The notes below the pieces were generated by a model that was not told the DNA's origin, did no database searches, and saw only the letters and a list, made by a program, of their open reading frames with translations. A program made the position numbers and the translations under genes. 64,000 bases of DNA, taken from contig NZ_FNXF01000018.1 of the NCBI RefSeq assembly GCF_900108485.1, positions 1 to 64,000 on the forward strand, in the 5' to 3' direction. The stretch's first letter is position 1, and each line of letters starts with the position of its first letter. This document shows positions 11,036 through 42,288 of this stretch, one piece after another. The stretch comes from Rheinheimera pacifica. Its GTDB lineage: Bacteria > Pseudomonadota > Gammaproteobacteria > Enterobacterales > Alteromonadaceae.

Positions 11036-11085
11036 TTCAGCGCTGTGTATCCTGTACTATGGCGAGAAGCCTAACAGGAAGCTGG

Positions 11086-20819: not shown

Positions 20820-23111
20820 TTAAGCGTTTTCAATATATTCCGACAGAGCAGCCAGGTGCTGCTCTGTTTTTAAATGAAAGTCTACCAGTTGCCGCTCTAA
20901 CCCCTGCCAGTTAATTTGTTCCTGCTCCATCCGCTTGGCCTGTTGCTGCACCCATAACAAACCAACCGATGCTGCTGCACCTTTTAGCTTGTGCGCCGCT
21001 TCCTGAAAATCTTTTTCCTGCCGTTGTACTGCTGTTTCCATTAGCTTATTCATATAGCCAGGCAATAACTGGGCAAATAGCTGGGCACTGCGTTTCATGG
21101 CATCTTTACCCAGCGACTGAATGTAGTCATTCAGGGTGCCAACATCCAGAACCTGGTTTTCATTGCTTACACTGGCCGGTTTTACCTGTTGCAACCGCAC
21201 TGCGCTGGGTGAAAATAGCCGTGCCAGCATTAAATCCAGCTTAGTGGTGTTGATAGGTTTGGCCAGTGCACCGTCTACCTGCACACCATCCAGTTGCTGT
21301 TCAGCTTTACGCACATTGGCACTTAATACCACTATAGGCAGAGCTGATAAATGTTCCTCATCGCGGATATAACGGGCGATTTGCTCGCCGCCCATATCGG
21401 GCAGTTGCATATCCAGCAACACCAAATCAATATCATCTTCGGTTTCAAGCAAGGCAATAGCATCTTCACCGGTTTCAGCATGAATAACACTATGGCCACG
21501 TTGCTCCAGCAACCCTATAGCAATTTCGGCATTTAGCGGCACATCTTCTATCAGCAGTATGGTCAGCTCTGGGCAGCTTATTGCCTGTTGTTGTTCTTGC
21601 TGTACTAGTTCTGTAGGCAATAGCACCGCAAAGCTACTGCCCTTACCTACTTCGCTGCTAACACTGATATTACCCTGCATTGCCTCAACCAGCGCCCGCG
21701 ACACGGATAAGCCTATGCCGGAGCCAATAATACTTAAGCGGCGGCCATCATTAGATTTGTAGTACATATCAAAGATGCGCTCCTGCTCTTGAGCAGCGAT
21801 ACCAATACCAGTGTCTTCGATATTAAAATGCAGCCGGTTATTTATTGCATCCAGTTTGCAATACAGGCTTACAGAGCCTGCAGCGGTAAATTTCACCGCA
21901 TTATTAAGCAAATTCCACAGCACCTGGCGCAACCGGGTTGGATCCATTCTTAAATAAACATCCAGCTCGCCTTCACAACTTAGTTTGAATTCCAGCCCTT
22001 TTTGCTGGCACAGCAACTCGGCAAAATTTGCGATGTCATTGATAAACTGCCGGAATGACACGCTATGGTAAACAATGTCGAGATCCTGCCGGTCAATTTT
22101 GTCCAGATCGATAATATCGTTAAAAATATTACCCAGTGTTTCCGCGCTGCTGAAAATGGTATTGGCCCAGCCATGTTGCTGCTTGCTGAGTTTACTCTCC
22201 AGTAAACGCCGGCTTAAACCCACAATACCGTTTAGCGGCGTTCTGAGCTCATGGCTTAACGTAGCAATAAATTTACCTTTATCCAAATAAGCTTTCTCCA
22301 GCGCCTGCTCGGCCAGCTTACGCGAGGTAATATCCCGGCCAAAACCCAGTAAACCGATATAACGGCCATAGCGGTCATAAAATGGCACTTTACGCATTTC
22401 AAACCACAGCACCTGGCCATCATCTTTGACAAATTCGACGTCTAATGTCAGTTCTGAGGGCTGTGGTGTATTGCTTTCGTGTTCAGTGAGGATAGCGGCC
22501 TGAGCACTGTCAGCGGTGTATATTTCTGCCGGGTAATGGCCAATAAGCTCACGGGCTGTTTTACCCATAATAGCTTCAAACATTTTATTGCAACTGGCAA
22601 AACGGCCGGTTTCGTCGCGGTAGTAGAATAAGTCAGGCGAGCTGTCAACGATTGAGCGGATCAGCAGGCTTTGCTCTTCCAGTTCTATCTGGGCTTTTTT
22701 ACGTTCGGCAATTTCTTTGCGCAGTTCATCAATCGCCCGGCGCTTAGCCTGAAAGGCTTTTTTCCGCTCTTCAATCTCAAAATTTAACTGGCGGATATTA
22801 TCCTGCATACCTTCGTTCAGTAACCGCTCCTGATGAGCAGAATCAATCAGGTAAGACAAGGCAGCATCAAGGTGCAGTACCAGATAAAAAATAAAGCTGA
22901 TAAACACCGGCCCCAACGCCAGGGTAAATAACAGCGCGCCATTTAGCAGGGTAAAATCTATTTGATTATGCAGCACCAGCTCAAGGCAAATACTAAATAA
23001 CGCAGCAAGAATAAGCAGTACCAGCTGGCAAAATAATGCCAGCTGCAGCTTACCCCATTTACGGATCCAGGCCGCAAAGATCCTGACGTGTGGATGAACC
23101 GGACCTTGCAT
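20820..23111 (-). CDS. arcB: hybrid sensor kinase ArcB
   Basis: 763 residues with full ArcB architecture: two transmembrane helices near the N terminus (about 24-45 and 58-80), a linker coiled coil (95-150), a PAS domain (about 150-265), HisKA with His287 in LSHELRTPLNG, HATPase with GSGIGLSVSRALVEAM, a receiver with Asp567 in LVLLDMQLPDMGG, and an HPt domain with His707 in AAHKLKGAAASVG. It senses quinone redox state and phosphorylates ArcA through the His-Asp-His relay. The three relay residues are present. It starts 25 bp after the end of the cyanophycinase-like gene on the same strand, so some read-through is possible. Confidence 0.93.
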   Translation of the reverse strand: MQGPVHPHVRIFAAWIRKWGKLQLALFCQLVLLILAALFSICLELVLHNQIDFTLLNGALLFTLALGPVFISFIFYLVLHLDAALSYLIDSAHQERLLNEGMQDNIRQLNFEIEERKKAFQAKRRAIDELRKEIAERKKAQIELEEQSLLIRSIVDSSPDLFYYRDETGRFASCNKMFEAIMGKTARELIGHYPAEIYTADSAQAAILTEHESNTPQPSELTLDVEFVKDDGQVLWFEMRKVPFYDRYGRYIGLLGFGRDITSRKLAEQALEKAYLDKGKFIATLSHELRTPLNGIVGLSRRLLESKLSKQQHGWANTIFSSAETLGNIFNDIIDLDKIDRQDLDIVYHSVSFRQFINDIANFAELLCQQKGLEFKLSCEGELDVYLRMDPTRLRQVLWNLLNNAVKFTAAGSVSLYCKLDAINNRLHFNIEDTGIGIAAQEQERIFDMYYKSNDGRRLSIIGSGIGLSVSRALVEAMQGNISVSSEVGKGSSFAVLLPTELVQQEQQQAISCPELTILLIEDVPLNAEIAIGLLEQRGHSVIHAETGEDAIALLETEDDIDLVLLDMQLPDMGGEQIARYIRDEEHLSALPIVVLSANVRKAEQQLDGVQVDGALAKPINTTKLDLMLARLFSPSAVRLQQVKPASVSNENQVLDVGTLNDYIQSLGKDAMKRSAQLFAQLLPGYMNKLMETAVQRQEKDFQEAAHKLKGAAASVGLLWVQQQAKRMEQEQINWQGLERQLVDFHLKTEQHLAALSEYIENA

Positions 23112-23135: not shown

Positions 23136-24986
23136 TTACTGCACAGGTTGAACATCAACCCTGAAATTACGATACGAACAGTACTGCACCTCTTTATCCT
23201 GCAACTGGTAAACGCCCTGCCGGGCATACGACGAATGATCTTTATACAGGCTTATTTGTTGACCCTGGCCAACCTTTACCGCCTTACCATCGGCCTGGCG
23301 GCTTTGAGTTAAACAAAGCAAATGTGCCAGTTGCTTATAGTTGTCGCGTTCAAACAACTCGCCAGACGCCAGCATAGGCGCCTGCATATTATTCGGTGCA
23401 AACTTCCAGGCGGCAAAACGGGTGCGTAACACACCGTCTTTTATCTCCATCGCATCGCCGCGGGTCAGGTAATGTGTGTTAACTTGCTTAATGACTGTTG
23501 CACTACCCTCGCCTGCATTTTGCATACCTTGCGTATCAACGACATACACTCCAGCCGCCCCTAACACAGACATTTTCACTTCTGGCTCGCTGTCTGAATT
23601 GCTAAAACCAACCAGCATTGCCGTAGCTTCATCAATCCCAAAGCCAAAACGGGTTTGCGTATCGTTCAGTAAACGAATTAAACGCCCCTGGCGGCCACGT
23701 TCAGAAAAATGTGTATCCAGTACTCCCCAGGAAAACAAGCCGAGACCACCAGTTGAGGTAAAAGTAAGATGATTTTCTGCCAGACCATTACTACAACTTT
23801 GATCTTTGTCGCAGCCAGGCTGTGGTGCTGGCAAATCAAAAGCGCCAAAGCGCATAGCATTATAGCTGTCGCCATTGCTAATCATCGGCGTTATACGGCC
23901 CTGATATGAGCCTCCTGACATCACAGCAGTACCAGCACTGGTGCCGGCAACAATAATCTGGCCCGCATCTAGCATTGATTGTATTTGCTTTAGTTCAGCC
24001 GATACACTGCCATCTTCCAGCCTGAGGGCCTGCAATGTCAGGCTTTGATCACCACCATTAATAAAAATAGCGTCTGCCCGGCGGATCTGCTCAACAGCTG
24101 CTGCAGTGCCTTGCTGACAAAACTCCCTCAGCTGCTGCATCAAATCAGGATAAACCCGCTCCCGCTGATAAGTACCATGATAAGCCGCCAGATATTGCGG
24201 TAATTGCGCGCATGACGGTTTATTGTCCACGCGGTTTTGTTGGGCAGCCTGATAGGCGGCGTTAATGGGTAACCAACTGACGTCTGCACCAGCTTCTGTA
24301 AATAAATTAGTGTAAAAATCGACCGCTGCAAATGGATCACGGCTGGAAGCGGTAACCACTAACACACGGGGCTTTCGCGCAGGCCCTGCCACCTGCTGAG
24401 CTAACTCAACGATTTTCCGATACAGCTCTATGGAAAATGCATCGCTGGTTTGTGCCAGATTGGCGTATTCTTTTTGCCTTTGCGGTGTGCGTCGCCGAGT
24501 AGTGTTATCTTGCGCTGTCGCCATTACCTGAAGCTGATCAAGTACAAAGTTGCGCTCACGATCACTTAGTTGGCTATAGTTTTCTTTTCCTGATACCCAG
24601 ATACCGTCAATTTCTATTTCTGCCGAGCGCCACAACCTTAGCAGTTCACGCTCGGACACTTGTTCGTTGTTTATTCTGCTACGAACAAACTCCAGCAATG
24701 CCAGCGTTTGTTGTTGTTCTATTGCGCGCTCCGGGTTCCAAAAACTGTCACCGGCAATATTGTTCAGATGTGCTGTCGATACGCTAAATAAATCCGCAGA
24801 CTTCGCTGCAGCAGAAAATAAATCTGGCGCCGAGCAACCCCGGGTATTTACAGAGGTACAACTTTGCAAGCCACCGCCAACTAACACCAAAGAGTAATCG
24901 GGAAATTTTTTACTGGCCCCCGTGGTTGCAGCAGAAACAGAGCAAGCCAACAGGCTGGCAGTGATATAAAAGCTCAGTGATCTCAT
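23136..24986 (-). CDS. exported cyanophycinase-like peptidase (S51 family)
   Basis: 616 residues with an N-terminal signal peptide (MRSLSFYITASLLACSVSAA). The S51/cyanophycinase core shows VLVGGG, FINGGDQ, the nucleophile Ser350 in AGTSAGTAVMSGG, DTHFSERGRQGRLIRLL and GIDEATAMLV. Cyanophycinase cuts multi-L-arginyl-poly-L-aspartate into beta-Asp-Arg dipeptides. The protein is longer than cyanobacterial CphB (about 270 residues), with an additional region between the N-terminal GGG strand and the core. Start 24986 has an AAGAG-type ribosome site; the frame extends 36 bp upstream. Divergent from a TonB receptor, permease and isoaspartyl dipeptidase, which supports cyanophycin use. Polymer specificity is inferred. 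Confidence 0.82.
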   Translation of the reverse strand: MRSLSFYITASLLACSVSAATTGASKKFPDYSLVLVGGGLQSCTSVNTRGCSAPDLFSAAAKSADLFSVSTAHLNNIAGDSFWNPERAIEQQQTLALLEFVRSRINNEQVSERELLRLWRSAEIEIDGIWVSGKENYSQLSDRERNFVLDQLQVMATAQDNTTRRRTPQRQKEYANLAQTSDAFSIELYRKIVELAQQVAGPARKPRVLVVTASSRDPFAAVDFYTNLFTEAGADVSWLPINAAYQAAQQNRVDNKPSCAQLPQYLAAYHGTYQRERVYPDLMQQLREFCQQGTAAAVEQIRRADAIFINGGDQSLTLQALRLEDGSVSAELKQIQSMLDAGQIIVAGTSAGTAVMSGGSYQGRITPMISNGDSYNAMRFGAFDLPAPQPGCDKDQSCSNGLAENHLTFTSTGGLGLFSWGVLDTHFSERGRQGRLIRLLNDTQTRFGFGIDEATAMLVGFSNSDSEPEVKMSVLGAAGVYVVDTQGMQNAGEGSATVIKQVNTHYLTRGDAMEIKDGVLRTRFAAWKFAPNNMQAPMLASGELFERDNYKQLAHLLCLTQSRQADGKAVKVGQGQQISLYKDHSSYARQGVYQLQDKEVQYCSYRNFRVDVQPVQ

Positions 24987-25353
24987 TATTCTCTTTCTTA
25001 TTTTAAGCGCAGAAGTATACAACTACCACGACCACAGATAGGTACCAAAAAATTAATACGGCATAGATTATCCTGTATTGACTTCTTTGCCAATTAGCAG
25101 TAATTCTATTGCTGTTGTTTAACTGATCACACATCATTTTGGTAGCGATATGTTAAAGAAAGCCTTCGCGCTTAGCTTATATCACTACTCGTCCTACTAC
25201 CTGTCGGAGTGGTTTAACGAGTAGACACACGTCAGACACTAAACCGTGTCTGGCAGGTCTCTATTCCTGCACCACAACAACTAACATAAATAATTATAAG
25301 CACACCAATTCGGACCATACCGAAGGCTGTGCCATGTTAAGACAGGTGTATCT
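24987..25353. promoter_or_regulatory. divergent control region of the cyanophycinase / TonB receptor genes
   Basis: 367 bp without a gene, between divergent starts. It contains a hairpin-forming inverted repeat at 25231-25254 (CAGACAC / GTGTCTG, extendable to 9 bp with one wobble, 6-nt loop) and a looser ACTCGT / ACGAGT pair around 25187-25222. No T-run follows, so these are more likely operator or mRNA-leader structures than terminators. Confidence 0.45.
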
Positions 25354-28287
25354 ATGCGCAAACTATCTCCTTTAGCGCTGGCTGTTGCCAGCAGCTTTTT
25401 CACAACTCCACTGGTTTTCGCTGCTGACGAAGTAGCAAAAGCAGAACAGAAAATTGAAAAAATCGAAATCACAGGCTCACGCATTCGTGGTGTAGATTTA
25501 GAGGGTACGCAACCCCTTACAGTCATTTCAGCTGATGATATTAAGAACTCCGGCGCCAGCTCAGTATATGAACTGCTTAAAGACTTAGGCCAGGTTCGCG
25601 GTGGTACCGGCACTTTTTCCACTTCAGAAAGTGGTGCAACGTCGACCTCCACACCGGCCGGTCAAGCTGCCGCCTCTTTGCGGGGTTTAGGCCCTTCTTC
25701 TACGTTGACGCTGATTAACGGACGCAGAGTTGCAGCATCGTCTTTTGCTGCCGGCACGCAAAATTTTGTTGATGTAAACAGTATCCCGCTGGCGGCAATT
25801 GAGCGCGTTGAAATTCTGGCTACCGGCGCCTCGGCTATTTATGGCGCTGATGCAGTAGCCGGTGTAATAAACTACATTCTGAAAAAAGACTACGAGGGGG
25901 CCGAAGTTACCCTGTCTTATGCAAACAGCACGGCATCATCAAATGATGCGAAAGTTAATGCTAACCTGCTATTTGGTACCAACTTTGCCGGTGGCAATTT
26001 AACCTTGTTTGCCGACCTTTTCGATCGCAAAGGCTATATGGCATCAGACAGAGCTTTCACCTCACAGCCGGCTTTGCAAAGTAACTACTCTTACCTGCCT
26101 AAATTGCGTGACGGCGCCAATATAAACTTCTATTCAGCACGCAACGGTGATGAAATTGGCAATCCAAACTGCACCAACCCGTTAGTCACTACCGAGTTTG
26201 GTGAAGAAATTTGTGCTTACTACGCAAATCAGGACGACCAACTGGAAAGCCCGTTTGAAAGCCAATCTGCCGGGTTTATTTTTACCAAAGATATAAACGG
26301 CTTAGTTTGGAATACCGACTTTTTCTACAGCACAACAAAATCAACAGCGATTTCCTCACCGGCACCAATAGAGCAGGTGGAGCAAATAAATCCGGATCAC
26401 GGTGCCTGGATTCCGGAAACCGCGCTGGATATTTACCCGTCGGAATATGCCGACTTTTTATTTGACGAACTGTGGATAGACCCGTTTAACACTGTCGCAG
26501 GCCAACGCTTATGGGGGTTCCAGTACAGTGCCCGCTTTAATGATCCCCGTACCATAGAAAACAAAACAGATTCGTTCCGTCTAACCAGCTCAATTGCCGG
26601 AGACGTGGCTGACTGGCAGTGGGAAACGGCAATCCTGCTGTCACAATCGCAATCTAAACAAAAAGCCATAGCCGGTATTTACAACCGCTATAAATATAGC
26701 GCTCTGGTGCATGGTGAGTTGTGTAGCAACGGTGCTATCGCCGACTTTGATCCGGACAGTGGCTTAAATTGCTCTGCAGGCAATTTGCTGAGCGCTTTTA
26801 ATCCTCTGCTGCAAAATGATGCTGCTAATGACGCCTTGCTATCAAATGCGCAAGAAGTACCAACACGCGATGGTAAAAGTACCGTGTTCGGCTGGGATCT
26901 GCGTTTTAGCGGCGACTTGATGCAGTTTAATGATGACGTTATCCGCGCGGCATTTGGTGTAGAAGCACGCAAAGAAAAAATCACTGATACGCCATCGTTA
27001 AACGCCAGAGCACGGCCGGAAAACCGTTATCTGGTTGATGTGTTCGGTTTTGGCTCCAGCTTATCAGCCGCTGACAGAACCCAGGCTGCCGCCTATGCCG
27101 AGGTTTATGCACCGTTAAGCAGCACTGTTGAACTGCAACTGGCTGGCCGGTACGACTATTACGACGATTTTGGCAGCACCTTTAACCCTAAAGTGGGCCT
27201 TACCTGGCGTCCGCTGGACAGCTTAGCTGTTCGTGGTTCATGGGCTACCTCTTTCAGAGCACCATCACTGACGCAAGCAGGTGTAAAACTAAGAACAACC
27301 ACAGCCACCTATGATTGCAGTGCAAATCAAACTGTTTCAGATCTTTACTGTGAAGGTTTCGGCGATGTGCGCCGTCCCAACGTGCTGGAGCTGGGCAACC
27401 CGGATTTACAAGCTGAAACCTCAGAATCACGTAGCGTAGGTTTTGCCTGGAGCCCAACTCAGGATACCACCTTAACGGTGGATTATTGGCAGTTTAGCCA
27501 TAAAAAGCTGGTAGACACTGATCTGACAGCCATGTTAGCAAGAACAGCAACAGACGCATCCGTGCGCCATTGCGGCCTGGTGCCGGAAGGTGCAACGGGT
27601 ATCGCTTATAACCCGGACTTGTGTTTGGTAACAGATCAAGCAGGCCTCACCGTAGAAGATGATGGTGCAAATATGCAGCAAATACTCGCGGCCTGGGTAG
27701 ACTTCGATGCGCCTCGTTTTGATGAATTGCCATTGCTACGCGACCATGTAATCCAGTTAGAAAATGTTGGCCAACAAGATGTTAAAGGTATAGATTTTCG
27801 CTTTTCACACACCCTGGATCTTATTGGCGGGCGCTTAGGCTTAGATGCAGACTGGACGCACTATATTAGTTTTGACCGCAATAAAGCCGGCTCTAATGAA
27901 ATCGAGTCGCTAATTGGTACTTTCCGTTACCCTGAAAACATCGCCAGTGCGCGTATTTTCTGGAGCGGTGAAGCGCTTTATTTAGGGCTGACCGCACTTT
28001 ACACCTCATCTTACAACGACGACATCAGCAGACTCAGACGTCGCAATATTAATGAGTTAAATGATTTGGGTTTGTTAGATGAAAATGGTGAGCGTGAAGT
28101 TGCAGCCTGGACCACATTACGCGCCAATATAGGCTACGATTTTGACAATGCCAGTATTAACTTTACTGTTGATAACCTGCTAGACCGCGACCCGCCGGCT
28201 GTTTACGGCTCAGCGCGCGGTTTTGATTCAATTAACCACAACGCTTTTGGCCGCAACTATAAACTATCTTTTAGTTACTTTTTTTAA
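25354..28287 (+). CDS. TonB-dependent receptor, putative beta-aspartyl peptide uptake
   Basis: 977 residues. Signal peptide (about 1-23, ending VFAA), TonB-box-like segment (KIEKIEITGSRI), a plug domain with SLRGLGPSSTLTLINGRR and EILATGASAIYGADAVAGVIN, and a barrel ending in FGRNYKLSFSYFF with terminal Phe. The plug type is that of large Alteromonadales/Caulobacter-like receptors for oligomers. It is divergent from an exported cyanophycinase and upstream of a permease and isoaspartyl dipeptidase, so transport of cyanophycin fragments is the simplest reading; specificity itself is not visible in sequence. Confidence 0.85.
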   Translation: MRKLSPLALAVASSFFTTPLVFAADEVAKAEQKIEKIEITGSRIRGVDLEGTQPLTVISADDIKNSGASSVYELLKDLGQVRGGTGTFSTSESGATSTSTPAGQAAASLRGLGPSSTLTLINGRRVAASSFAAGTQNFVDVNSIPLAAIERVEILATGASAIYGADAVAGVINYILKKDYEGAEVTLSYANSTASSNDAKVNANLLFGTNFAGGNLTLFADLFDRKGYMASDRAFTSQPALQSNYSYLPKLRDGANINFYSARNGDEIGNPNCTNPLVTTEFGEEICAYYANQDDQLESPFESQSAGFIFTKDINGLVWNTDFFYSTTKSTAISSPAPIEQVEQINPDHGAWIPETALDIYPSEYADFLFDELWIDPFNTVAGQRLWGFQYSARFNDPRTIENKTDSFRLTSSIAGDVADWQWETAILLSQSQSKQKAIAGIYNRYKYSALVHGELCSNGAIADFDPDSGLNCSAGNLLSAFNPLLQNDAANDALLSNAQEVPTRDGKSTVFGWDLRFSGDLMQFNDDVIRAAFGVEARKEKITDTPSLNARARPENRYLVDVFGFGSSLSAADRTQAAAYAEVYAPLSSTVELQLAGRYDYYDDFGSTFNPKVGLTWRPLDSLAVRGSWATSFRAPSLTQAGVKLRTTTATYDCSANQTVSDLYCEGFGDVRRPNVLELGNPDLQAETSESRSVGFAWSPTQDTTLTVDYWQFSHKKLVDTDLTAMLARTATDASVRHCGLVPEGATGIAYNPDLCLVTDQAGLTVEDDGANMQQILAAWVDFDAPRFDELPLLRDHVIQLENVGQQDVKGIDFRFSHTLDLIGGRLGLDADWTHYISFDRNKAGSNEIESLIGTFRYPENIASARIFWSGEALYLGLTALYTSSYNDDISRLRRRNINELNDLGLLDENGEREVAAWTTLRANIGYDFDNASINFTVDNLLDRDPPAVYGSARGFDSINHNAFGRNYKLSFSYFF

Positions 28288-28298
28288 GCTCTCGTAGC

Positions 28299-28325
28299 AA
28301 AGGGAGAGTTCACTCTCCCTTTTTT
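28299..28325 (+). terminator. hairpin terminator after TonB receptor
   Basis: AGGGAGAG / CTCTCCCT stem, 4-nt loop, followed by TTTTT. It lies 11 bp past the receptor stop and just ahead of the permease, so downstream genes may receive only part of the transcripts, or have their own promoter. Confidence 0.8.
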
Positions 28326-28347
28326 CGCGCTTGATATAGGTTAAGTT

Positions 28348-29832
28348 ATGACTTTAACAAATAAAAAGCCAGCATCGATGCCAGATGCTTTTGTCATCCT
28401 GTTTTTTGTGATGATTCTGGCCGCTATCGCATCGCACTTGGTACCGGCCGGCGCTTTTACGCTGCTTGAACCCGCACCAGTGGCTGAAGGCGCCACCAAG
28501 CTGAAGGGCAAATTAGATCCCAATAGTTTTAGCTTCGCCAGCGACAGCCAACAAGGGGTGCCATTGTTTGCGGAGGGTGGCGGCATTGGCTTTTTTAACT
28601 ATGCCTTTGAAGGCCTGGTGTCGGGCAATAAATGGGGCTCGGCCATTGGCGTAGTGGCCTTTATCCTGCTTACCGGTGGTGCCTTTGGCATCATTATGAA
28701 AACCGGCGCTATCCATAACGGCATTCTGGCGCTGATAGACAAAACCAAACGGATGGAGTTTTTATTTATTCCGCTGATGTTTGGCCTGTTTTCATTGGGC
28801 GGCGCCGTTTTTGGTATGGGCGAAGAAGCTATCGCTTTTTGCATCGTGCTGCTGCCACTGATGCTGGCGCTGGGCTATGACGCTATTACCACTGTATTGG
28901 TTACTTATGTTGCTACCCAAATTGGTTTTGCTACCTCCTGGATGAACCCGTTTAATGTGGCTATTGCCCAGGGAATTGCAGAAATTCCGTTACTGTCCGG
29001 CAGTGATTTGCGCATTGGCATGTGGGCAGTATTTACGCTGTTTGGTATTGTTTTTACCATGCGCTATGCCGCTAAGGTGAAAGCCAGGCCAGAGCTATCG
29101 TTAAGCTATGCTACGGATCAGAAGCTGCGGGCGCAGCAAAGCGCCGACGCCAAAAACGACTATAGCCTGCTTGATACGCTAATTCTGCTGGCGTTTTTCG
29201 CCGGCTTAATCTGGATTATCTGGGGCGTAACAACGCGCCAATACTATATTCCGGAAATTGCCAGCCAGTTTTTTACCATAGGTATTGTCATTGCCGTGAT
29301 TGCCGTACTGGGTAAACGCCTGAGCATGAATGAAGCCGCGGAAGGTTTTAAACACGGCGCAGCCGAGTTATTACCCGCAGCGCTTATCGTGGGTATGGCC
29401 AAAGGCATAGTGTTATTGCTCGGTGGCGATAACCCCGAATCACCGTCGGTATTAAACACCCTGCTATATTACAGTGGCCAGCTACTTGGCGATTTGCCGG
29501 CTTTTTTATCCGCCTGGTTAATGCTGATTATCCAGTCGGTGATTAACTTCTTCATTGCTTCCGGCTCCGGCCAGGCCGCACTGACTATGCCGCTGATAGC
29601 ACCATTGGCCGATTTAGTCGGACTTTCGCGCCAGATTGCGGTATTGGCCTTTCAATTGGGTGATGGCTTAACCAACTGTATTATTCCTACATCGGCGGCC
29701 TTAATCGGCTGTTTGGGCGTGGTACGACTTGACTGGACACTATGGTTTCGCTTTGTCTGGAAATTACAACTATGGCTATTCGCTTTAGCCAGTGCCTTTA
29801 TGTTTCTGGCCGTGGCCATAGGTTATCAATAG
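28348..29832 (+). CDS. YfcC-family inner-membrane permease (DcuC/ArcD superfamily)
   Basis: 494 residues, about 12 hydrophobic segments. The family-typical sequences FSLGGAVFGMGEEAIAF, ATSWMNPFNVAIAQGIAEIP and the C-terminal ASGSGQAALTMPLIAPLADL place it in the YfcC branch of the DcuC/arginine-ornithine antiporter superfamily. Related members move amino acids, C4-dicarboxylates or dipeptides. Lying between a TonB receptor and an isoaspartyl dipeptidase, it is the obvious candidate to bring beta-aspartyl dipeptides across the inner membrane. The cargo is inference. Confidence 0.85.
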   Translation: MTLTNKKPASMPDAFVILFFVMILAAIASHLVPAGAFTLLEPAPVAEGATKLKGKLDPNSFSFASDSQQGVPLFAEGGGIGFFNYAFEGLVSGNKWGSAIGVVAFILLTGGAFGIIMKTGAIHNGILALIDKTKRMEFLFIPLMFGLFSLGGAVFGMGEEAIAFCIVLLPLMLALGYDAITTVLVTYVATQIGFATSWMNPFNVAIAQGIAEIPLLSGSDLRIGMWAVFTLFGIVFTMRYAAKVKARPELSLSYATDQKLRAQQSADAKNDYSLLDTLILLAFFAGLIWIIWGVTTRQYYIPEIASQFFTIGIVIAVIAVLGKRLSMNEAAEGFKHGAAELLPAALIVGMAKGIVLLLGGDNPESPSVLNTLLYYSGQLLGDLPAFLSAWLMLIIQSVINFFIASGSGQAALTMPLIAPLADLVGLSRQIAVLAFQLGDGLTNCIIPTSAALIGCLGVVRLDWTLWFRFVWKLQLWLFALASAFMFLAVAIGYQ

Positions 29833-29862
29833 CCGCAGTGCGGCAGCTTTGAGGTTATTATT

Positions 29863-31068
29863 TTGAAACAAGTTTTGAACGCAAATTTGCACGCAATCAT
29901 ACTGATAAAAAATGCCGAAGTACTCTCGCCACAGCCACTTGGCAAACTGGATGTCGTGATAGCCTGTAGCAGCATTGCCGCCGTTGGCAAAGACTTTAAC
30001 CTGGCCGGCAGTAACCTGCCGGTGACCGTTATTGATGGCAACGAGTTTTATTTAACGCCGGGTTTTGTTGACTCTTTAGTGCATTTTATCGGCGGTGGCG
30101 GCGAAGGCGGTTTTGCTACCCGCACGCCGGAAATGCAATTAACCGATGCTACCCTGGGCGGTGTCACCACTGCTATTGGTGTATTAGGTACCGATGCTAC
30201 CACCCGCACCTTAACCAACTTACTGGCCAAAGCCCATGCGCTGGATATTGAAGGTATTAGCACTTACTGCCATACCGGCTCGTACGAAATACCCTGTCGT
30301 ACCCTTACCGGCAATATTACAGATGACTTAATTCTGATCGACAAATTTATCGGCGTCGGTGAAATTGCTATCAGCGATCACCGCTCATCGCAGCCCACCA
30401 CTGATGAAATCCGTAAAGTCGCTGCCGCAGCGCGTATTGGCGGCATTTTGGCTGGTAAAAGCGGTATTGTCAGTGTGCATATGGGCGCCGGCGAGCGTAT
30501 TTTACAGCCGGTTTATCAGGCCGTAGCCGGTACCGAATTAAAGCTGAAACAGTTTTACCCCACCCATATGAACCGCAACCGCCGTGTATTTGAAGCCGGG
30601 TTGGAGTTTGCCACTAAGGGCGGCGTAATTGACTTTACCACCAGCACCACCGAGTTCGATTTAAAGCATGGAGAAGTGGCCGCAGCGGCTGCGCTGGCAG
30701 AAGCGCTGGCATTTGGTATTAAGCCGATGCAGTTGACGCTAAGCTCAGATGGCAATGCCAGCCTGCCGATATACAATGACGACGGTGATTTACTCGGCTT
30801 GCAGGTAGGTACAGTGCAAAGCCTGTATCAATCGGCCAGAGAGGCGATAACGCAGCATAAGGTCAACATAGCCGATGCTATCTGTAGCATTACTGCGGCG
30901 CCGGCAGCAATATTGGGTTTAACACGCAAGGGCCGTGTAGCAACAAACCTGGATGCCGATGTGGTGCTGTTGCGCCGGGATAATCTGCAGATTGATACTG
31001 TAATCGCCAAAGGCCAGATTTTAGTTCAGCAAGGAAAAGCACTGGTAAAGGGCACCTTTGAGCGCTAA
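29863..31068 (+). CDS. iadA: isoaspartyl dipeptidase (beta-aspartyl peptidase), altered metal site
   Basis: 401 residues, amidohydrolase superfamily, TTG start. IadA splits beta-aspartyl dipeptides, including beta-Asp-Arg from cyanophycin. The family segment IGGGGEGGFATRTPE is intact, as are His206 (VHMGAGER), His235 (PTHMNRNRR) and Asp296 (SSDGNAS). Two metal-ligand positions differ from E. coli IadA (numbering from memory): the first His of the H-x-H motif is Leu72 (DSLVHF), and the carbamylated Lys is replaced by Glu167 (GVGEIAISDHRSS). The Glu variant occurs in other family members; the Leu is odd. It follows the permease by 30 bp. Confidence 0.85.
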   Translation: MKQVLNANLHAIILIKNAEVLSPQPLGKLDVVIACSSIAAVGKDFNLAGSNLPVTVIDGNEFYLTPGFVDSLVHFIGGGGEGGFATRTPEMQLTDATLGGVTTAIGVLGTDATTRTLTNLLAKAHALDIEGISTYCHTGSYEIPCRTLTGNITDDLILIDKFIGVGEIAISDHRSSQPTTDEIRKVAAAARIGGILAGKSGIVSVHMGAGERILQPVYQAVAGTELKLKQFYPTHMNRNRRVFEAGLEFATKGGVIDFTTSTTEFDLKHGEVAAAAALAEALAFGIKPMQLTLSSDGNASLPIYNDDGDLLGLQVGTVQSLYQSAREAITQHKVNIADAICSITAAPAAILGLTRKGRVATNLDADVVLLRRDNLQIDTVIAKGQILVQQGKALVKGTFER

Positions 31069-31125: not shown

Positions 31126-31150
31126 AAAAAGCTGCTGCGGCAGCTTTTTT
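31126..31150 (+). terminator. hairpin terminator after iadA
   Basis: AAAAAGCTGC / GCAGCTTTTT arms with a 4-nt loop ending in a run of seven Ts, 57 bp after the stop. It closes the permease-dipeptidase operon. Confidence 0.85.
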
Positions 31151-31472
31151 TATTGCTGCCGCAGGTATAATTGGCAAAAATATCGCCAATTCATGTAATT
31201 AATTTTCAGTTTTATAACGTTACTTTCTGCGCCGGGTTGCCAGTAATGCACTACAAAGTTAACTTGCAATTAGCCGGATTTCGCGGTATACCTGTCAACT
31301 CTTTAAACGTTTAGATGGCTAAACATTTCTAGAGCAAAAACACTACAACGCATTGACCTCTGAAAGAGTAACCGTTATTTTCTTTCAGCAGCAGCAAAAA
31401 CCAAAAATTAGAATAATAATTCAAAAATAATAAATATTTATTTAAATATCAGGACAAGTGTGGAGGTTAGTC
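31151..31472 (+). promoter_or_regulatory. gltB upstream region
   Basis: About 320 bp without a gene, increasingly AT-rich towards gltB. It must contain the gltBD promoter, but I cannot single out convincing -35/-10 boxes. A strong GGAGG (31462-31466) precedes the gltB ATG. A small palindrome TTTAG/CTAAA is near 31309-31324. Confidence 0.4.
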
Positions 31473-34400
31473 ATGGCGTTGTATCAGCACAGTCAGGCAA
31501 GAGAGAACTGTGGCTTCGGTCTGATCGCACATCTGGAAGGCGCGGCCAGCCACCGGATCGTCAGAACCGCAATAAACGGCCTTGACCGTATGCAGCACCG
31601 CGGCGGTATATCTGCCGACGGTAAAACAGGTGATGGTTGCGGTTTATTAATGCAAAAACCGGACAGCTTCTTCCGCGCTATAGCCGAAGAAAATGGCTGG
31701 AATCTGGCAAAGAAATACGGCGTCGGCATGATTTTTTTCAGCCAGGACCCGGTAAAAGCTGCCTTAGCGAAAAAAATTATTGAGCAGGAAATTGCCCGCG
31801 AAACCCTGACCTTAGTGGCCTGGCGTGTCGTGCCTATAGACAGTAGTGTGCTGGGCCCGTTAGCGCTTAGCTCTATGCCAGGCATAGAGCAGGTTATTGT
31901 TAATGCGCCGCACGGCTGGGGCGATCACGACTTAGAGCGCCGGCTGTACATGCTGCGCCGCCGCATTGAAAAACAATTAAGCGACGATGCTGATTTTTAT
32001 ATTCCCAGCTTCTCGTCATTAGTTACCGTATTTAAAGGCCTGATGATGCCGGCCGATTTGCCGCGTTATTATCTCGACTTAGCTGATATCCGCATGGAAA
32101 CCGCCATTTGCGTGTTCCACCAGCGTTTTTCTACCAATACCATGCCGCGCTGGCAACTGGCGCAGCCGTTTCGCTTTTTAGCCCATAACGGCGAGATTAA
32201 TACCATTACCGGTAACCGCCAGTGGGCCCGCGCACGGCAGTATAAATTTGCCTCGCCGCTGCTAAGCGATTTACACGATGCCGCGCCCTTTGTCAGCCAA
32301 AGCGGCTCCGATTCCAGCTCGCTGGACAATATGCTGGAGCTGTTATTAGCCGGTGGCATGGATTTATTCCGTGCCATGCGTTTGTTAGTGCCGCCGGCCT
32401 GGCAAGGCAACCGCGTAATGGATGATAACTTAAAGGCGTTTTACGAGTTTAACTCCATGCATATGGAGCCGTGGGACGGCCCGGCCGGTATCGTAATGAC
32501 CAATGGTCAGCATGTCGCCTGTAACCTCGACCGCAACGGCCTGCGCCCTGCCCGCTTTGTTATTACCCGCGATAAGCTGATTACGCTGGCTTCAGAAGTA
32601 GGCATTTGGGATTACACCCCGGATGAAGTGGTAGAAAAAGGCCGCGTTGGCCCGGGCGAAATGCTGGCAGTAGATACCACCACCGGCAAAATCTGGCGCT
32701 CCAACGAAATAGACAGCGACTTAATGGCACGTCATACCTACCGTGACTGGCTAAATGCCAACGTGCAGCGGTTGGTACCGTACGAGAAATACGAGACCGA
32801 TTTAATCGGCAAGCGGGTATTTTCTGATGACGACATGCTGGTGTACCACAAGCTGTTTAACTACAGCTATGAAGAAATTGATCAGGTAATGACAGTGCTG
32901 GCCAAAGACGGCCAGGAAGCGGTGGGCTCTATGGGTGATGATACGCCGATGGCGGTATTATCGCGCAAGCCGCGCACCTTATTTGATTACTTCCGCCAGC
33001 AGTTTGCTCAGGTCACTAACCCGCCGATCGATCCACTGCGTGAATCACACGTAATGTCGCTGGCCACCAGTATCGGCCGTGAGCATAACGTATTTAAAGA
33101 AACGGCCGGTTACGCCCGCCGCATTCAGTTTGAATCGCCGGTGATGATGTACTCCGACTTAAAGCAGTTAAAACAAGCCGATGAGAAGTACTACAAGCAT
33201 CAGATTTTTTCGCTGAACTTCGACCCGGCGCTGCAAAGCCTGCAACAAGCGGTAGAGCAACTATGCGCCGACGTTATCACTGCCGTGCGCGACAATAACG
33301 TCGTGCTGGTCATGTTAACTGACCGGCGTATTGAGCAAGGCAAGCTGCCGATCCCTGCTGCTATGGCGGTAGGCGCGGTGCAACATGCACTGGTTAATGC
33401 GCAGCTGCGCTGTGACTCCAACATTATTGTTGAAACCGCCTCAGCGCGCGACTCGCACCATTTTGCCGTGCTGATTGGTTTAGGTGCTACCGGCATTTAT
33501 CCATTTTTGGCCTATGAGACTGTAGAGCAACTGGTAGAAAAAGGTGTAATTAACCTTACCGCACGCCAGGCAGTGCTGAATTACCGTAAAGGCATTAATA
33601 AAGGCCTGTACAAAATTATGTCGAAAATGGGCATTTCAACAGTGGCCAGCTATCGCTGCTCTAACCTGTTTGAAGCCGTCGGCATTGATAAAACCGTAAT
33701 GCAACTTTGTTTTGCCGATGTCCCGTCACGTTTGGGCGGCGCCGGCTTTAGCGACTTTGAACAAGATGTACAGCAACTGGCCAAAGTGGCCTGGTTAAAA
33801 CGTAAACCGCTGAACCACGGTGGTTTATTAAAGTATGTACATGACGGCGAATACCACGCCTATAACCCGGATGTGGTGCAAACGCTGCAAAAAGCCGTGC
33901 GCTCGGGTAAGTATGAAGATTACCAGCAGTACAGCAGTATTGTGAACGAGCGGCCGGTAGCACATTTGCGCGATTTATTTAAGCTGAATGATGCCACGCC
34001 TGTGCCGCTGGAGCAGGTAGAGAGCGAGCAAAACCTGTATCCGCGTTTTGACAGCGCCGCTATGTCTATCGGTGCCTTAAGCCCGGAAGCGCATGAGGCC
34101 TTAGCCATAGCGATGAACCGCTTAGGCGGGCGGTCTAACTCGGGTGAAGGCGGTGAAGATCCGCGCCGCTTTGGCACCGAGAAAAACTCGAAAATTAAGC
34201 AAGTTGCCTCCGGCCGCTTTGGCGTAACGCCGCATTACCTGGTAAATGCTGAGGTTATTCAAATCAAGGTAGCCCAGGGTGCTAAGCCTGGCGAAGGTGG
34301 CCAGTTACCCGGTGAAAAAGTTACCGCCGAAATTGCCCGGCTGCGCTACTCGGTGCCTGGCGTAACGCTGATATCACCACCGCCGCACCATGATATTTAC

Positions 34401-35933
34401 TCAATTGAAGATTTAGCCCAGCTGATTTTCGATTTAAAGCAGGTGAATCCGCAGGCGCTGATTTCAGTGAAATTAGTGTCAGAGCCCGGCATCGGTACCA
34501 TTGCCGCCGGCGTGGCCAAAGCCTATGCCGATCTGATTACCGTATCCGGTTACGACGGCGGCACCGGCGCCAGCCCGTTAACCTCAGTGAAATACGCCGG
34601 TAGCCCGTGGGAACTGGGTTTAGCCGAAGTGCACCAGGCCTTGGTGGAAAACGGCCTGCGCGACCGCGTACGGCTGCAGGTAGACGGCGGCTTAAAAACC
34701 GGGCTGGACGTAATTAAAGCTGCCATCTTAGGCGCCGAAAGCTTTGGTTTTGGCACCGGCCCTATGGTGGCGCTGGGCTGTAAGTTTTTACGTATTTGCC
34801 ATTTAAACAACTGCGCCACCGGCGTGGCGACACAAGATGCGACATTGCGGCGAGATCACTTTACCGGCTTGCCGGAAATGGTAATGAACTACTTTAAGTT
34901 CTTAGCCTTTGAAGTACGCGAGCTGATGGCACAGCTGGGGGTAACTGAGCTGACCCAACTGATAGGCCGCACCGATTTGCTGGCAATGAAAGACAGTGAA
35001 ACGCAAAAACAAGCCAAGCTGGATTTAACGCCGATATTGCAAGCCAGTGGCGTCAAATCTGACAAGGCGCTGTTTTGTGTGCAAAACAATACACCGTTTG
35101 ACGAAGGCAAGTTAAATCAGGACCTGGTAAAACGCTGCGAGCAAATGGTACTAAATAAAAGCGGTGGCCGGTTAAACCTGAGTATCCGTAACACCGACCG
35201 CTCGGTTGGCGCGGCGCTGTCCGGCTTTATTGCCAGGCAGCATGGTAACCAGGGTATGGCAACCGATCCTATCCGTATCCGCTTTACCGGTACCGCTGGC
35301 CAAAGCTTTGGCGTATGGAATGCCGGTGGCCTGCATATGTCACTGCAGGGCGATGCCAACGATTACGTTGGTAAAGGCATGACCGGCGGCATGCTGGCCA
35401 TTTTCCCGGCCAAGGGCGCCAGCTTTGCTAAAAACGGCTTTACCATTGCCGGTAATACCTGTTTATACGGCGCCACCGGCGGCCGGCTATATGCCGCAGG
35501 CCAGGTCGGCGAGCGTTTTGCCGTACGAAATTCGGGCGCTTTAGCCGTGGTAGAAGGCACCGGCGATAACTGCTGCGAATATATGACCGGCGGCGTGGTC
35601 GTAGTACTGGGCTGCACCGGGGTGAACTTTGGTGCCGGTATGACCGGCGGCTTTGCTTATCTGCTGGATGAGCAAAACGATTTAGAGCTTAGGTTAAACC
35701 CCGAGCTGGTCGAGGCGCTGGACGTTAGCACGCCGATACTGCAGGAACACCTGCGCAGCCTGTTGCACCAGCACGTAGAAGAAACCGGCAGCGACAAAGC
35801 ACAGAAAATCTTAAACGACTTTAACCGTTATTTAAGTCAATTTAAGCTGGTTAAACCAAAAACCAGCGATGTAAACACCTTGCTGGGACACCGCGCACGC
35901 TCGTCAGCCGAGCTGCGGGTTCAGGCGATGTAG
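31473..35933 (+). CDS. gltB: glutamate synthase (NADPH) large subunit
   Basis: About 1486 residues, full length. It begins with a short propeptide ending before the N-terminal nucleophile Cys (ARENCGFGLIAHLEG) of the class II glutaminase domain. Then come the central domain, the FMN/3Fe-4S synthase domain (PGEGGQLPGEKV, SGYDGGTGASPLTS and the cysteine cluster CKFLRICHLNNCATG) and a C-terminal GXGXG beta-helix (MTGGMLAIFP, YMTGGVVVVLG). It makes glutamate from glutamine and 2-oxoglutarate. ATG 31473 is chosen over GTG 31458 because GGAGG is correctly placed for it. Forms the enzyme with gltD, 9 bp downstream. Confidence 0.97.
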   Translation: MALYQHSQARENCGFGLIAHLEGAASHRIVRTAINGLDRMQHRGGISADGKTGDGCGLLMQKPDSFFRAIAEENGWNLAKKYGVGMIFFSQDPVKAALAKKIIEQEIARETLTLVAWRVVPIDSSVLGPLALSSMPGIEQVIVNAPHGWGDHDLERRLYMLRRRIEKQLSDDADFYIPSFSSLVTVFKGLMMPADLPRYYLDLADIRMETAICVFHQRFSTNTMPRWQLAQPFRFLAHNGEINTITGNRQWARARQYKFASPLLSDLHDAAPFVSQSGSDSSSLDNMLELLLAGGMDLFRAMRLLVPPAWQGNRVMDDNLKAFYEFNSMHMEPWDGPAGIVMTNGQHVACNLDRNGLRPARFVITRDKLITLASEVGIWDYTPDEVVEKGRVGPGEMLAVDTTTGKIWRSNEIDSDLMARHTYRDWLNANVQRLVPYEKYETDLIGKRVFSDDDMLVYHKLFNYSYEEIDQVMTVLAKDGQEAVGSMGDDTPMAVLSRKPRTLFDYFRQQFAQVTNPPIDPLRESHVMSLATSIGREHNVFKETAGYARRIQFESPVMMYSDLKQLKQADEKYYKHQIFSLNFDPALQSLQQAVEQLCADVITAVRDNNVVLVMLTDRRIEQGKLPIPAAMAVGAVQHALVNAQLRCDSNIIVETASARDSHHFAVLIGLGATGIYPFLAYETVEQLVEKGVINLTARQAVLNYRKGINKGLYKIMSKMGISTVASYRCSNLFEAVGIDKTVMQLCFADVPSRLGGAGFSDFEQDVQQLAKVAWLKRKPLNHGGLLKYVHDGEYHAYNPDVVQTLQKAVRSGKYEDYQQYSSIVNERPVAHLRDLFKLNDATPVPLEQVESEQNLYPRFDSAAMSIGALSPEAHEALAIAMNRLGGRSNSGEGGEDPRRFGTEKNSKIKQVASGRFGVTPHYLVNAEVIQIKVAQGAKPGEGGQLPGEKVTAEIARLRYSVPGVTLISPPPHHDIYSIEDLAQLIFDLKQVNPQALISVKLVSEPGIGTIAAGVAKAYADLITVSGYDGGTGASPLTSVKYAGSPWELGLAEVHQALVENGLRDRVRLQVDGGLKTGLDVIKAAILGAESFGFGTGPMVALGCKFLRICHLNNCATGVATQDATLRRDHFTGLPEMVMNYFKFLAFEVRELMAQLGVTELTQLIGRTDLLAMKDSETQKQAKLDLTPILQASGVKSDKALFCVQNNTPFDEGKLNQDLVKRCEQMVLNKSGGRLNLSIRNTDRSVGAALSGFIARQHGNQGMATDPIRIRFTGTAGQSFGVWNAGGLHMSLQGDANDYVGKGMTGGMLAIFPAKGASFAKNGFTIAGNTCLYGATGGRLYAAGQVGERFAVRNSGALAVVEGTGDNCCEYMTGGVVVVLGCTGVNFGAGMTGGFAYLLDEQNDLELRLNPELVEALDVSTPILQEHLRSLLHQHVEETGSDKAQKILNDFNRYLSQFKLVKPKTSDVNTLLGHRARSSAELRVQAM

Positions 35934-37355
<1,422 letters not shown>

Positions 37356-38912: not shown

Positions 38913-39686
38913 TTATTCACTTATCAGCTTTTGAATTGCTATATTTTCTCTCAAAATGATATTTCTTGTAGTCTGAAATTCCTTTGATGGATAAGAGGAC
39001 CAAAAAACAGCAAATTTTGCAAGTCGCTCAATATCATTAGTTTTTCTAGCCTGTTTAACTTGCCTTTCAAAACCAAAGAATATTTCTCTACGAGCAGCGC
39101 AAAGTCTTGAACAGTTTAAATTCAATACTTCAAGTGTTTTCCTAACTAAATTTAACGTCGAATCGTGTTTGTTATGTTCAATATTATTAGATTCACAATA
39201 TTGAACATTAGCGAACAATTCGCCCGAAGATTTATCGAATGAAAAGAAATTATGCTCATGCGGAAGGTGTAGAGGATTAATAATTACGCCACTCCAGTCT
39301 CTATTGAGATGTCTATACTTGGTCTCGAGACGAGCTTTGTGAGCATCACAGCTAAGATTTTCAGGAAGCCTGTAACCACGCAACTCTGAATTATCATGGT
39401 CAGAGCCGCCTATGCACACGCCGAAAATATTAAACCAGTCAGTATGATGTCTTATGTTCAATGACTTAGAAACAAAGTGCTCAATACGCTTGTTTAGTGG
39501 AGTGATGCCGGTATTGACTTCACAGTAAGCGCAAAGTTGATTTTGATCACTGAAGACTATATTTTGCACTTCTTTATAATCTTTACCACCATTCCAGTTC
39601 CGAAAACAATTCCAATCAGCGTTAGGGTTTATACCTGAAAATATTGTTAGAGGATTGGGAGGCAACGACTTATTTATCTTGATCAA
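38913..39686 (-). CDS. retron-associated HNH endonuclease (PtuB-like)
   Basis: 257 residues. CAYCE and the His of RIEHFVSKS form the zinc/HNH start, followed by TDWFNIFGVCIGGSDHDN, the PtuB pattern of Septu and retron-Ec78 systems. In those systems PtuB is the nuclease held in check by the ATPase and retron RT-msDNA, and released on phage attack. Its start overlaps the ATPase end by 17 bp, so expression is coupled. It is AT-rich compared with flanking genes. Function is transferred from family and context. Confidence 0.85.
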   Translation of the reverse strand: MIKINKSLPPNPLTIFSGINPNADWNCFRNWNGGKDYKEVQNIVFSDQNQLCAYCEVNTGITPLNKRIEHFVSKSLNIRHHTDWFNIFGVCIGGSDHDNSELRGYRLPENLSCDAHKARLETKYRHLNRDWSGVIINPLHLPHEHNFFSFDKSSGELFANVQYCESNNIEHNKHDSTLNLVRKTLEVLNLNCSRLCAARREIFFGFERQVKQARKTNDIERLAKFAVFWSSYPSKEFQTTRNIILRENIAIQKLISE

Positions 39687-41295
39687 TTTCCTTTTCCCAT
39701 TCCCGATTTTCTATATACTGTCTAAGCTGAACAAGAACCTCGTAGTCACTTCCAAAATTACCCTGAAGTCTACTGTATAATTCCTTTGCTCTTTCTGACT
39801 CATACTCATCTGAGTACACAAGCTTCTCATACTCGTCTAATATTTTGGTAAATTCATCTTCAGGGGGGCGAACTTCAACTTCAAAAAGATTTTTCAAAAC
39901 CCAAGATGATACGGCCCCTTGTACTCCTTGAGGCGCACTATATTTTTTCCCATCTTTCAACAACCAAATATTATCACTTGATACCGCATGACAAACTTGT
40001 GGGCTATGTGTAGTTATTATGAACTGAATATTCTTAAACGTTGATTGTAACCTCGAAACAATAACCTGTTGCCACGATGGGTGAAGGTGTAGATCGATTT
40101 CATCTATTAAAACAACTCCCACTCCATCTAAAGGGTTATCACGTTCCGGATTTAGTAATGTAAGTCTTCTTGCAATATCGGCAACTAACGCGAGCAAGCT
40201 CTTTTCACCTTGCGATAGTTGCAATACGCTTAACTGCTCATTATTCTTTTTAATACTCAAATCTAAAGGATTTCTCTGAATTTTCAAATCCGAAAATCCA
40301 GGTAAAAAATTATATATAGCATCCTTAACAAAATTAAGCATTCTCTCATTTGTATTCTCTGTTGAAATAGAGTTAAGCCTACTACGCAATTCTTCAATAT
40401 CTTTTCTATACTTATCGATAGTAGATTTAACATTATCATTTAGATTTTCAAATTCAGAAAATATAGACTGCAATAACGGACTATTTAATTCAGCTTCTTT
40501 CTCGGAAATTTTTATCTTTATTTCATTTAGACTATTTTCGTTTTTCTCTTCTGTAACCTCTTTGAACCACTTAAAAAACAAACGAAAATCGGCTTTTCCG
40601 GTTAGACTTTTACTATATCCTCTAGCTTTACTCCAAATATAGCTATCAAGTATCTCCTCTGACTTTTCTATGTCTTTTGTAGTGACATCATTTGCCCTTT
40701 CTACGTTATATGAAGCAAGTAAAGGCAGAGGAAAGTTATCAGTCGTTGAGTTTGCAATTCTAAAGATGTTACCCAAATCATTAAGATCTGTAAATCTGCT
40801 TTTCCTTATTGTTTGACTCAAAGGTCTGCTTTGCGACAACTCCACACCAACATTTAATTCATCGATTAAAAAATTAATTGCTATAGTTGAATATTCTGAT
40901 TTTGATTTTATTTCTAATTCGTCAATCTGATCACCATTATATGATCTAGTAGTAAGCCTTGAAGAAAGATGACTAAGTGTCTTTTGTATAGCTTCCAGAA
41001 TAGTAGATTTACCTGAACCATTATTACCAACAAGGATAGTGCAGCCGTGTTTATTCAACTGCAAATCTACGTCACCAAACCCTTTAAAATTAATCAGTCT
41101 AACAGAGCTAATTCTGAACGTATAATTATCAAGTTGCTTAATGAATTTACTCTTAAAATAATCAGCCTTTTCAGAGTCCTTATCTACACCAATCCCTTCG
41201 TCGTACATTTTAAACAATTGATAAGATGCAGAAAACTCGCCCGCGTCTGACTTTAAAAAAAGCTTTTTATGCTTAGCGATTTCATTCATGACCAT
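39670..41295 (-). CDS. retron-associated SMC/ABC-like ATPase (PtuA-like)
   Basis: 541 residues. The N-terminal region has a Sel1/TPR-like stretch (ASYQLFKMYDEGIGVDKDSE), as known from retron-Ec78 ATPases. Then Walker A ILVGNNGSGKSTILEAI, a coiled-coil middle (about 240-320), ABC signature LSQGEKSLLALVADIA, Walker B VVLIDEIDLHLHPSWQ and a switch-His region FIITTHSPQVCH. It would bind the HNH nuclease and sense loss or alteration of the retron complex. ATG 41295 or 41289 are both possible; the reverse transcriptase stop is one or a few bases upstream. Confidence 0.87.
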   Translation of the reverse strand: MVMNEIAKHKKLFLKSDAGEFSASYQLFKMYDEGIGVDKDSEKADYFKSKFIKQLDNYTFRISSVRLINFKGFGDVDLQLNKHGCTILVGNNGSGKSTILEAIQKTLSHLSSRLTTRSYNGDQIDELEIKSKSEYSTIAINFLIDELNVGVELSQSRPLSQTIRKSRFTDLNDLGNIFRIANSTTDNFPLPLLASYNVERANDVTTKDIEKSEEILDSYIWSKARGYSKSLTGKADFRLFFKWFKEVTEEKNENSLNEIKIKISEKEAELNSPLLQSIFSEFENLNDNVKSTIDKYRKDIEELRSRLNSISTENTNERMLNFVKDAIYNFLPGFSDLKIQRNPLDLSIKKNNEQLSVLQLSQGEKSLLALVADIARRLTLLNPERDNPLDGVGVVLIDEIDLHLHPSWQQVIVSRLQSTFKNIQFIITTHSPQVCHAVSSDNIWLLKDGKKYSAPQGVQGAVSSWVLKNLFEVEVRPPEDEFTKILDEYEKLVYSDEYESERAKELYSRLQGNFGSDYEVLVQLRQYIENREWEKEIDQDK

Positions 41296-41296
41296 T

Positions 41297-42235: not shown

Positions 42236-42258
42236 TCTGACTTCTTTAAAGTAAAATT

Positions 42259-42282
42259 GCGATGCAGGAATACCTGCATCGC
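42259..42282 (-). terminator. hairpin between retron ncRNA and RT gene (terminator/attenuator)
   Basis: GCGATGCAGG / CCTGCATCGC perfect 10-bp stem with a 4-nt loop. On the minus strand it is followed by AATTTTACTTT. It lies after the a2 end of the predicted ncRNA and 24 bp before the RT start, so it could end the ncRNA while allowing some read-through. Confidence 0.6.
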
Positions 42283-42288
42283 TGGAAC

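Follow-up and report, generated by a model that had tools for sequence, protein, structure and literature searches.

A putative cyanophycin-scavenging gene set in Rheinheimera pacifica, and recurrent active-site loss of its cyanophycinase-like protein in relatives that lack the import genes

The 64,000-nucleotide stretch of DNA from the water bacterium Rheinheimera pacifica analysed here (positions 1 to 64,000 of contig NZ_FNXF01000018.1, assembly GCF_900108485.1; hereafter the window, whose numbering is used for its features) contains four adjacent genes that probably constitute a cassette for scavenging extracellular cyanophycin (multi-Arg-poly-Asp), the polymer in which cyanobacteria store nitrogen. 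A preliminary description of the window had proposed this four-gene cluster, and the open reading frames together with family profile searches bear it out:

23136..24986, minus strand: long S51 cyanophycinase-like protein, predicted to be exported, 616 aa from an ATG
24987..25353: divergent intergenic region between the S51 gene and the TonB-dependent receptor gene
25354..28287, plus strand: TonB-dependent receptor (TBDT), with plug (PF07715) and barrel (PF00593) both found
28348..29832, plus strand: YfcC-type permease of the DcuC family (NF008611, 711 bits; cut-off 500)
29863..31068, plus strand: isoaspartyl dipeptidase-like protein IadA, Type I (Glu167), with Leu72 (TIGR01975, 487.8 bits; cut-off 331.25)

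An alternative TTG start at 25022 would extend the S51 gene to 23136-25022 (628 aa), but the internal ATG at 24986 is the more likely start because several Rheinheimera homologues begin at the equivalent position; S51 residue numbers below nevertheless follow the 628-aa form. The TBDT stays below the cut-off in each of the 21 listed NCBIfam models.

The S51 protein (Pfam S51, 31.9 bits; cut-off 23.9) possesses the catalytic residues Ser362 (in GTSAG), His438 and Glu465 and the pocket residues Gln326, Asp436, Thr437, Arg442, Arg444 and Arg447, a list taken from work on CphE and CphB (PMC3235067). Thr437 is of the CphE type, at a position where CphE differs from CphB. If a long S51 protein is called dead when any of Gln326, Ser362, His438 or Glu465 is changed, and live otherwise, all nine residues are intact in the window protein and in all 72 other live proteins. 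A profile of the long form (29 sequences) matched the solved cyanophycinases 7uqv (1.4e-20), 3en0 (1.3e-19) and 7uqw (1.2e-18) and alpha-aspartyl dipeptidase at only 0.0028, and hhalign aligned the long forms to the short S51 proteins linked to CphA1 with 99.8% probability. The six conserved Cys of the window protein (55, 63, 271, 302, 404 and 410) fit an exported protein; the full complement of six is found in 69 of the 73 live proteins and 22 of the 29 dead ones, and an N-terminal hydrophobic stretch exceeds a hand-set threshold in 66 of 73 and 25 of 29, respectively (these counts and the lipobox count below include locus L082 in place of the window). The known catalytic and pocket residues thus support the earlier designation as a predicted exported cyanophycinase-like protein. 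Its signal appears more likely to be of type I than that of a lipoprotein: a lipoprotein anchor was considered and rejected because LLAC or ILAC, although found in most Rheinheimera copies, is not universal (R. aquimaris and R. nanhaiensis do not have it) and a loose lipobox-like pattern matches only 10 of the 73 live proteins and five of the 29 dead ones. The second S51 match of the same genome was rejected as a cyanophycinase and is PepE.

Conservation of the set was surveyed across 196 genomes from the family to which the window belongs, with a complete set defined as all four genes within 12 kb. Because the complete set recurs in 46 of the 196, the arrangement is not due to chance, and the co-occurrence in relatives by which the preliminary description proposed to judge its reading is found. 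Twelve further relatives (11 Rheinheimera records and one gammaproteobacterial metagenome-assembled genome) were found by name, a search that reaches close relatives only. Among Rheinheimera, strain EpRS3 and R. baltica have the full set. In a class-level sample of 369 genomes, 20 match the long-S51 profile and three do so above 300 bits, namely the genome of the window, a second member of its family and a genome from a different family. Co-localisation was counted with hand-set limits for YfcC and S51 places, the split genome G156 being counted twice for YfcC. The 86 IadA places above cut-off comprise 55 near a long S51 gene, 22 near CphA1, none near both and nine near neither; YfcC places (at least 48% identity) number 64, with 59 near a long S51 gene and none near CphA1; and 51 of 56 TBDT places are near a long S51 gene, again with none near CphA1. 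Thus, there are two systems: a storage cluster of CphA1, a second CphA-like gene, a short S51 gene and IadA (L062-L064), without these transporters, and a scavenging set with them. Both are present together in four genomes. The genome of the window has no CphA1 match (TIGR02068) at E <= 1e-60, which makes storage of CphA1-made cyanophycin unlikely there. In another layout, S51, YfcC and IadA stand in tandem on one strand with no TBDT (L054, 4024-8422; L100; L103); no YfcC match was found at L103.

Two kinds of natural replacement bear on the activities that the set uses. In three congeneric genomes (G111, G157 and G192) the gene order is gltB-folE2-IadA-YfcC-TBDT-arcB (folE2 being named by NCBIfam in G157 and judged alike by eye in the other two), with S51 absent between TBDT and arcB, and all three have elsewhere a CphE-type S51 protein of 422-450 aa with all motifs and, by eye, a signal-like N-terminus. 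The remaining four members of the genus in the sample (G045, G083, G137 and G176) have a long S51 protein and no CphE-type match. Four genomes (G093, G160, and G011 and G060 of a single genus) have S51-YfcC-TBDT without a neighbouring IadA, and all four have a canonical HxH IadA elsewhere; a fifth, G156, was left out because it is split over contigs. From these swaps we argue that the set needs two activities, those of a cyanophycinase and of an isoaspartyl dipeptidase.

The dipeptidase of the set is not the canonical one. It resembles CpsIadA (PMC5517026; PDB 5xgw), for which Type I was defined, in having Glu in place of the carbamylated Lys and in keeping the other zinc and substrate residues: His74, Glu81, Tyr141, Glu167, Arg174, His206, His235, Arg238 and Asp296 are all present in the window protein and in all 61 set-linked homologues compared. 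It differs from CpsIadA in that Leu replaces the first His of the HxH metal motif, both in the window protein and in every one of those 61 homologues. That His is kept in six of six CphA1-linked IadA proteins, in three stand-alone ones and, by alignment, in the solved IadA structures 1onw, 7cf6, 5xgw and 8dqn. Both His of HxH bind metal in other amidohydrolases. The zinc contacts listed for CpsIadA include only the second His (PMC5517026), so the LxH dipeptidase of the set is likely to be active. The earlier statement that IadA chemistry is established was nonetheless too strong for this atypical LxH subfamily.

The TBDT is the least constant member. Eight places in the survey have S51, YfcC and IadA without it, of which five are clean (G083, G137, G176 and the second sets of G045 and G097) and three are doubtful (G033, with a TBDT about 20 kb away; G072, with one of 31% identity beside the genes; and G094, which is decayed); R. 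aquimaris and R. lutimaris also have an active S51-YfcC-IadA row with no TBDT alongside. The preliminary description envisaged a complete outside-to-inside route, to which the TBDT is not essential. Between the window and strain EpRS3, dS is 2.9 for the TBDT gene, compared with 0.24 for S51, 0.37 for IadA and 0.64 for YfcC, a difference that fits replacement of a surface receptor, the TBDT being an accessory that evolves apart from its neighbours. Exchange of the TBDT independently of its neighbours was noted in the window (25354-28287) and at L010, L009 and L050; phages or bacteriocins could perhaps drive it, which is speculation.

The set is flanked, and its plus-strand genes are punctuated, by the following features:

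20820..23111, minus strand: arcB-like hybrid kinase gene (797 bits, below the NF008302 cut-off of 838)
28302..28317, plus strand: hairpin followed by a T-run between the TBDT gene and yfcC, a possible partial terminator (consensus match only)
31126..31149, plus strand: terminator-like hairpin, 3' of iadA and 5' of gltB (consensus match only)
31458..37355, plus strand: gltB (from 31458) and gltD, flanking and outside the set, conserved next to it in some members of the family

The arcB-like gene lies 24 bp downstream of the S51 gene on the same strand, with arcA (above its cut-off) alongside, and the S51-arcB adjacency is retained in Rheinheimera and some other genera whether S51 is live or dead. 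Terminator-like consensus sites number 20 in the region against 10.3 expected. The gltBD genes, noted earlier as following the set and fitting nitrogen use, probably lie outside the unit, given the intervening consensus hairpin at 31126-31149 and the many relatives in which the set is present with no gltB within the fetched locus, and gltBD was rejected as a member.

Long S51 proteins also occur without the import module (YfcC/IadA), and there the active site is mostly broken. Of 102 long S51 proteins (432-686 aa stop to stop, window included), 66 are live with the module, seven live without it, 29 dead without it and none dead with it. Nine duplicate loci, L118 (a 251-aa fragment beside YfcC/IadA) and L082 (at a contig edge) were left out, as were S51 matches below 200 bits, which comprise proteins of CphE type, short forms, the second part of L120, and L123 (432 aa, 124.6 bits, left unassigned); L080 counts as without the module here and as with it in another tally, through a 31% paralog. 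Beside YfcC/IadA, all nine residues are intact in every long S51 protein except the L118 fragment. Among the 29 dead proteins, 25 are without Ser, 28 without Ser or His and 21 without both. The trees require from 8 to 10-11 changes between live and dead, a count that itself gives no direction. Fisher's test on a near-identical table (65/7/1/29) gives p = 9e-18 with relatedness ignored; with eight independent pairs, a mean of 5.4 agree, none oppose and the remainder are ties, giving a median p of 0.06 (range 0.03-0.125).

The broken proteins could simply be pseudogenes on their way to being lost. Two of the 29 are shorter than 500 aa, L120 has a separate second piece, L067 retains Ser, His and Glu with only the GGDQ part altered, and G146 has an IadA remnant beside an intact S51 gene, all of which would suit decay. 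However, the other 27 are open frames of at least 500 aa stop to stop, and dN/dS is 0.046-0.188 in nine comparisons between two dead copies, in which dS reaches 2.8; the corresponding values are 0.034-0.243 for live-live pairs (10 of 12 computable) and 0.027-0.043 for arcB (5 of 7), all being rough where dS exceeds 1 and drawn from overlapping pairs. The dead proteins also keep Cys55, Cys63 and Arg447 in 28 of 29 and Cys271, Cys302, Trp250, Gly462 and Asp464 in 29 of 29. Decay is therefore an unlikely explanation, if the least unlikely of the three alternatives considered here. Purifying selection on proteins with broken sites, where the module is absent, suggests that the dead S51 proteins are probably retained for a second, non-catalytic role. 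Whether the long S51 protein, besides being an exported cyanophycinase, has an additional non-catalytic function is a question on which the evidence is evenly balanced; the same even judgement applies to the corollary that loss of the import module would leave selection acting on that second function alone, so that conserved pseudo-cyanophycinases would arise recurrently. The second function could possibly be binding of polymer, peptide or an envelope partner, or ArcB signalling in part of the family.

In the records named R. hassiensis, R. oceanensis, R. pacifica and strain D18, the S51 gene is flanked by arcB and gltB, the module is missing and the catalytic Ser is replaced by Gly or Asn; strain D18 has an additional S51-YfcC-IadA row in which S51 is intact (L054). 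The dead, module-less layout beside arcB and gltB (L004, L007, L011 and L012, the last from R. pacifica, with S51 at about 9980-11884) is repeated across genera. Close Rheinheimera species have the arcB-gltB stretch in two haplotypes, live with the module and dead without. In the arcB tree, R. oceanensis and R. pacifica group with the window and L003 (support 96/94), but in the S51 tree they join R. hassiensis (100/100) in a clade separate from that of the window (100/99), a conflict which suggests that the arcB-gltB stretch has probably been exchanged by recombination.

In the scavenging scheme, the exported long S51 protein (about 600 aa, a relative of CphE) would cut cyanophycin, the predicted substrate, to beta-Asp-Arg outside the inner membrane, either outside the cell or in the periplasm; the TBDT would help to move fragments of the polymer, or the dipeptide, through the outer membrane; the YfcC permease would carry the dipeptide inward through the inner membrane; and the IadA-type dipeptidase would split it to Asp and Arg. 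In the absence of the module most S51 proteins have broken sites and would be kept for the non-catalytic role. The S51 residues, the co-occurrence of the genes, their separation from CphA1 clusters and the swaps carry this interpretation. A number of results weigh against it. The S51 protein of the window misses the cyanophycinase equivalog TIGR02069 (104.7 bits; cut-off 126.6), because of which it is called cyanophycinase-like here, and the CphE-type S51 protein of L071 (440 aa) clears the same model with 175.6 bits. An AlphaFold2 model of the window S51 protein from 13 Rheinheimera sequences had a mean pLDDT of 45 and was not used. The dipeptidase departs from the HxH motif (Leu72-x-His74), the TBDT is missing from the eight places given above, and the seven live S51 proteins have no module at their own locus, although G033 and G075 have one elsewhere. 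The link between module and active-site state, once corrected for relatedness, is weak and comes from four to six informative pairs. Promoter-like sites are not enriched (7 against 11.7 in shuffles), and no convincing palindrome or regulatory motif is shared among 63 divergent regions, in which ArgR-like boxes are no commoner than in shuffles; the palindrome AATTA-N4-TAATT occurs in nine of these regions against 0.2 by mononucleotide shuffle.

If cyanophycin were not the main substrate, the set could serve general salvage of isoaspartyl peptides from aged proteins or from other beta-Asp polymers and peptides. The promiscuity of tested IadA and IaaA enzymes from cyanophycin clusters (PMC10206079) and the shortfall against TIGR02069 would be accommodated by such a function, but the CphE pocket (Gln, Asp, Thr and three Arg) is intact in 73 of 73 live long S51 proteins and it is a CphE-type S51 protein that stands in where the long form is missing (G111, G157 and G192), so that general salvage appears improbable, slightly more so than decay of the dead copies. 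Least probable is a mainly non-catalytic S51 protein (in the envelope or in signalling, perhaps with the adjacent ArcB) whose linkage to the module is secondary, which would suit the purifying selection on dead forms, their mostly retained scaffold Cys and Trp and the adjacency to arcB in a number of genomes, but is opposed by the nine residues being intact wherever the module stands, the 251-aa fragment apart, and by the many sets in which arcB is not beside S51.

Elsewhere in the window, a low-GC island at 38913-42470 (GC 0.33 at 40001-42000) holds a type I-A-like retron, and an Rfam scan of 20000-45000 gave no match at gathering level:

38913-39686, minus strand: retron PtuB/HNH
39670-41295, minus strand: retron PtuA-type ATPase
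41297-42235, minus strand: retron reverse transcriptase
42391-42470, minus strand: msr RNA candidate (46.7 bits, under the gathering score of 52)

The set offers testable candidates, the TBDT and YfcC, for the transporters that scavenging of cyanophycin would need, as well as a subfamily of dipeptidases whose metal motif is altered; the natural swaps and losses can serve as controls. Conserved S51 proteins that were inactivated again and again would be unusual in that a secreted degradative enzyme would have become a retained pseudo-enzyme many times, tied to a missing downstream pathway.

Clusters pairing cyanophycinase with dipeptidases were counted by Sharon and Schmeing 2023 (PMC10206079), who cite Ben Hania et al. 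for a cyanophycin utilization locus with a cyanophycinase, iadA and a transporter in strain L21-Spi-D4. The window resembles that locus in clustering an S51 gene, an IadA-type gene and a transporter in a genome with no cphA1 match, and differs from it, as far as the citing description rather than a gene-by-gene comparison allows, in having a TBDT, a YfcC-type permease, an S51 protein of about 600 aa and an LxH IadA. Pseudomonas CphE (PMC3235067) shares with the long form the S51 family, a signal peptide, the GXSXG/His/Glu residues, Thr for Gln173 of CphB and the pocket, but its gene of 1260 bp (about 420 codons) is shorter than that of the 616-aa long form, which has extra regions and the six conserved Cys. 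A 49-kDa S51 "cyanophycinase" identified by LC-MS/MS in the growth medium of a Rheinheimera-like Arsukibacterium (PMC4767292) is of CphE size, unlike the long form, and a putative secreted cyanophycinase or utilization of external cyanophycin is mentioned for Pseudoalteromonas tunicata (PMC2536512) and Thalassotalea (PMC7564069). In Citromicrobium JLT1363 a TBDT gene likewise lies near a cyanophycinase gene and cyanophycin was proposed as the TBDT substrate (Tang 2012, PMC3400609), but the main text of that paper contains neither "isoaspartyl" nor "YfcC". The literature searched, whose coverage excludes most subscription papers, describes neither this set nor any inactive cyanophycinase. Thus, the concept of a utilization locus and a TBDT beside a cyanophycinase are already in print, and what is new here is the recurrence of dead long S51 proteins in relatives without the module.

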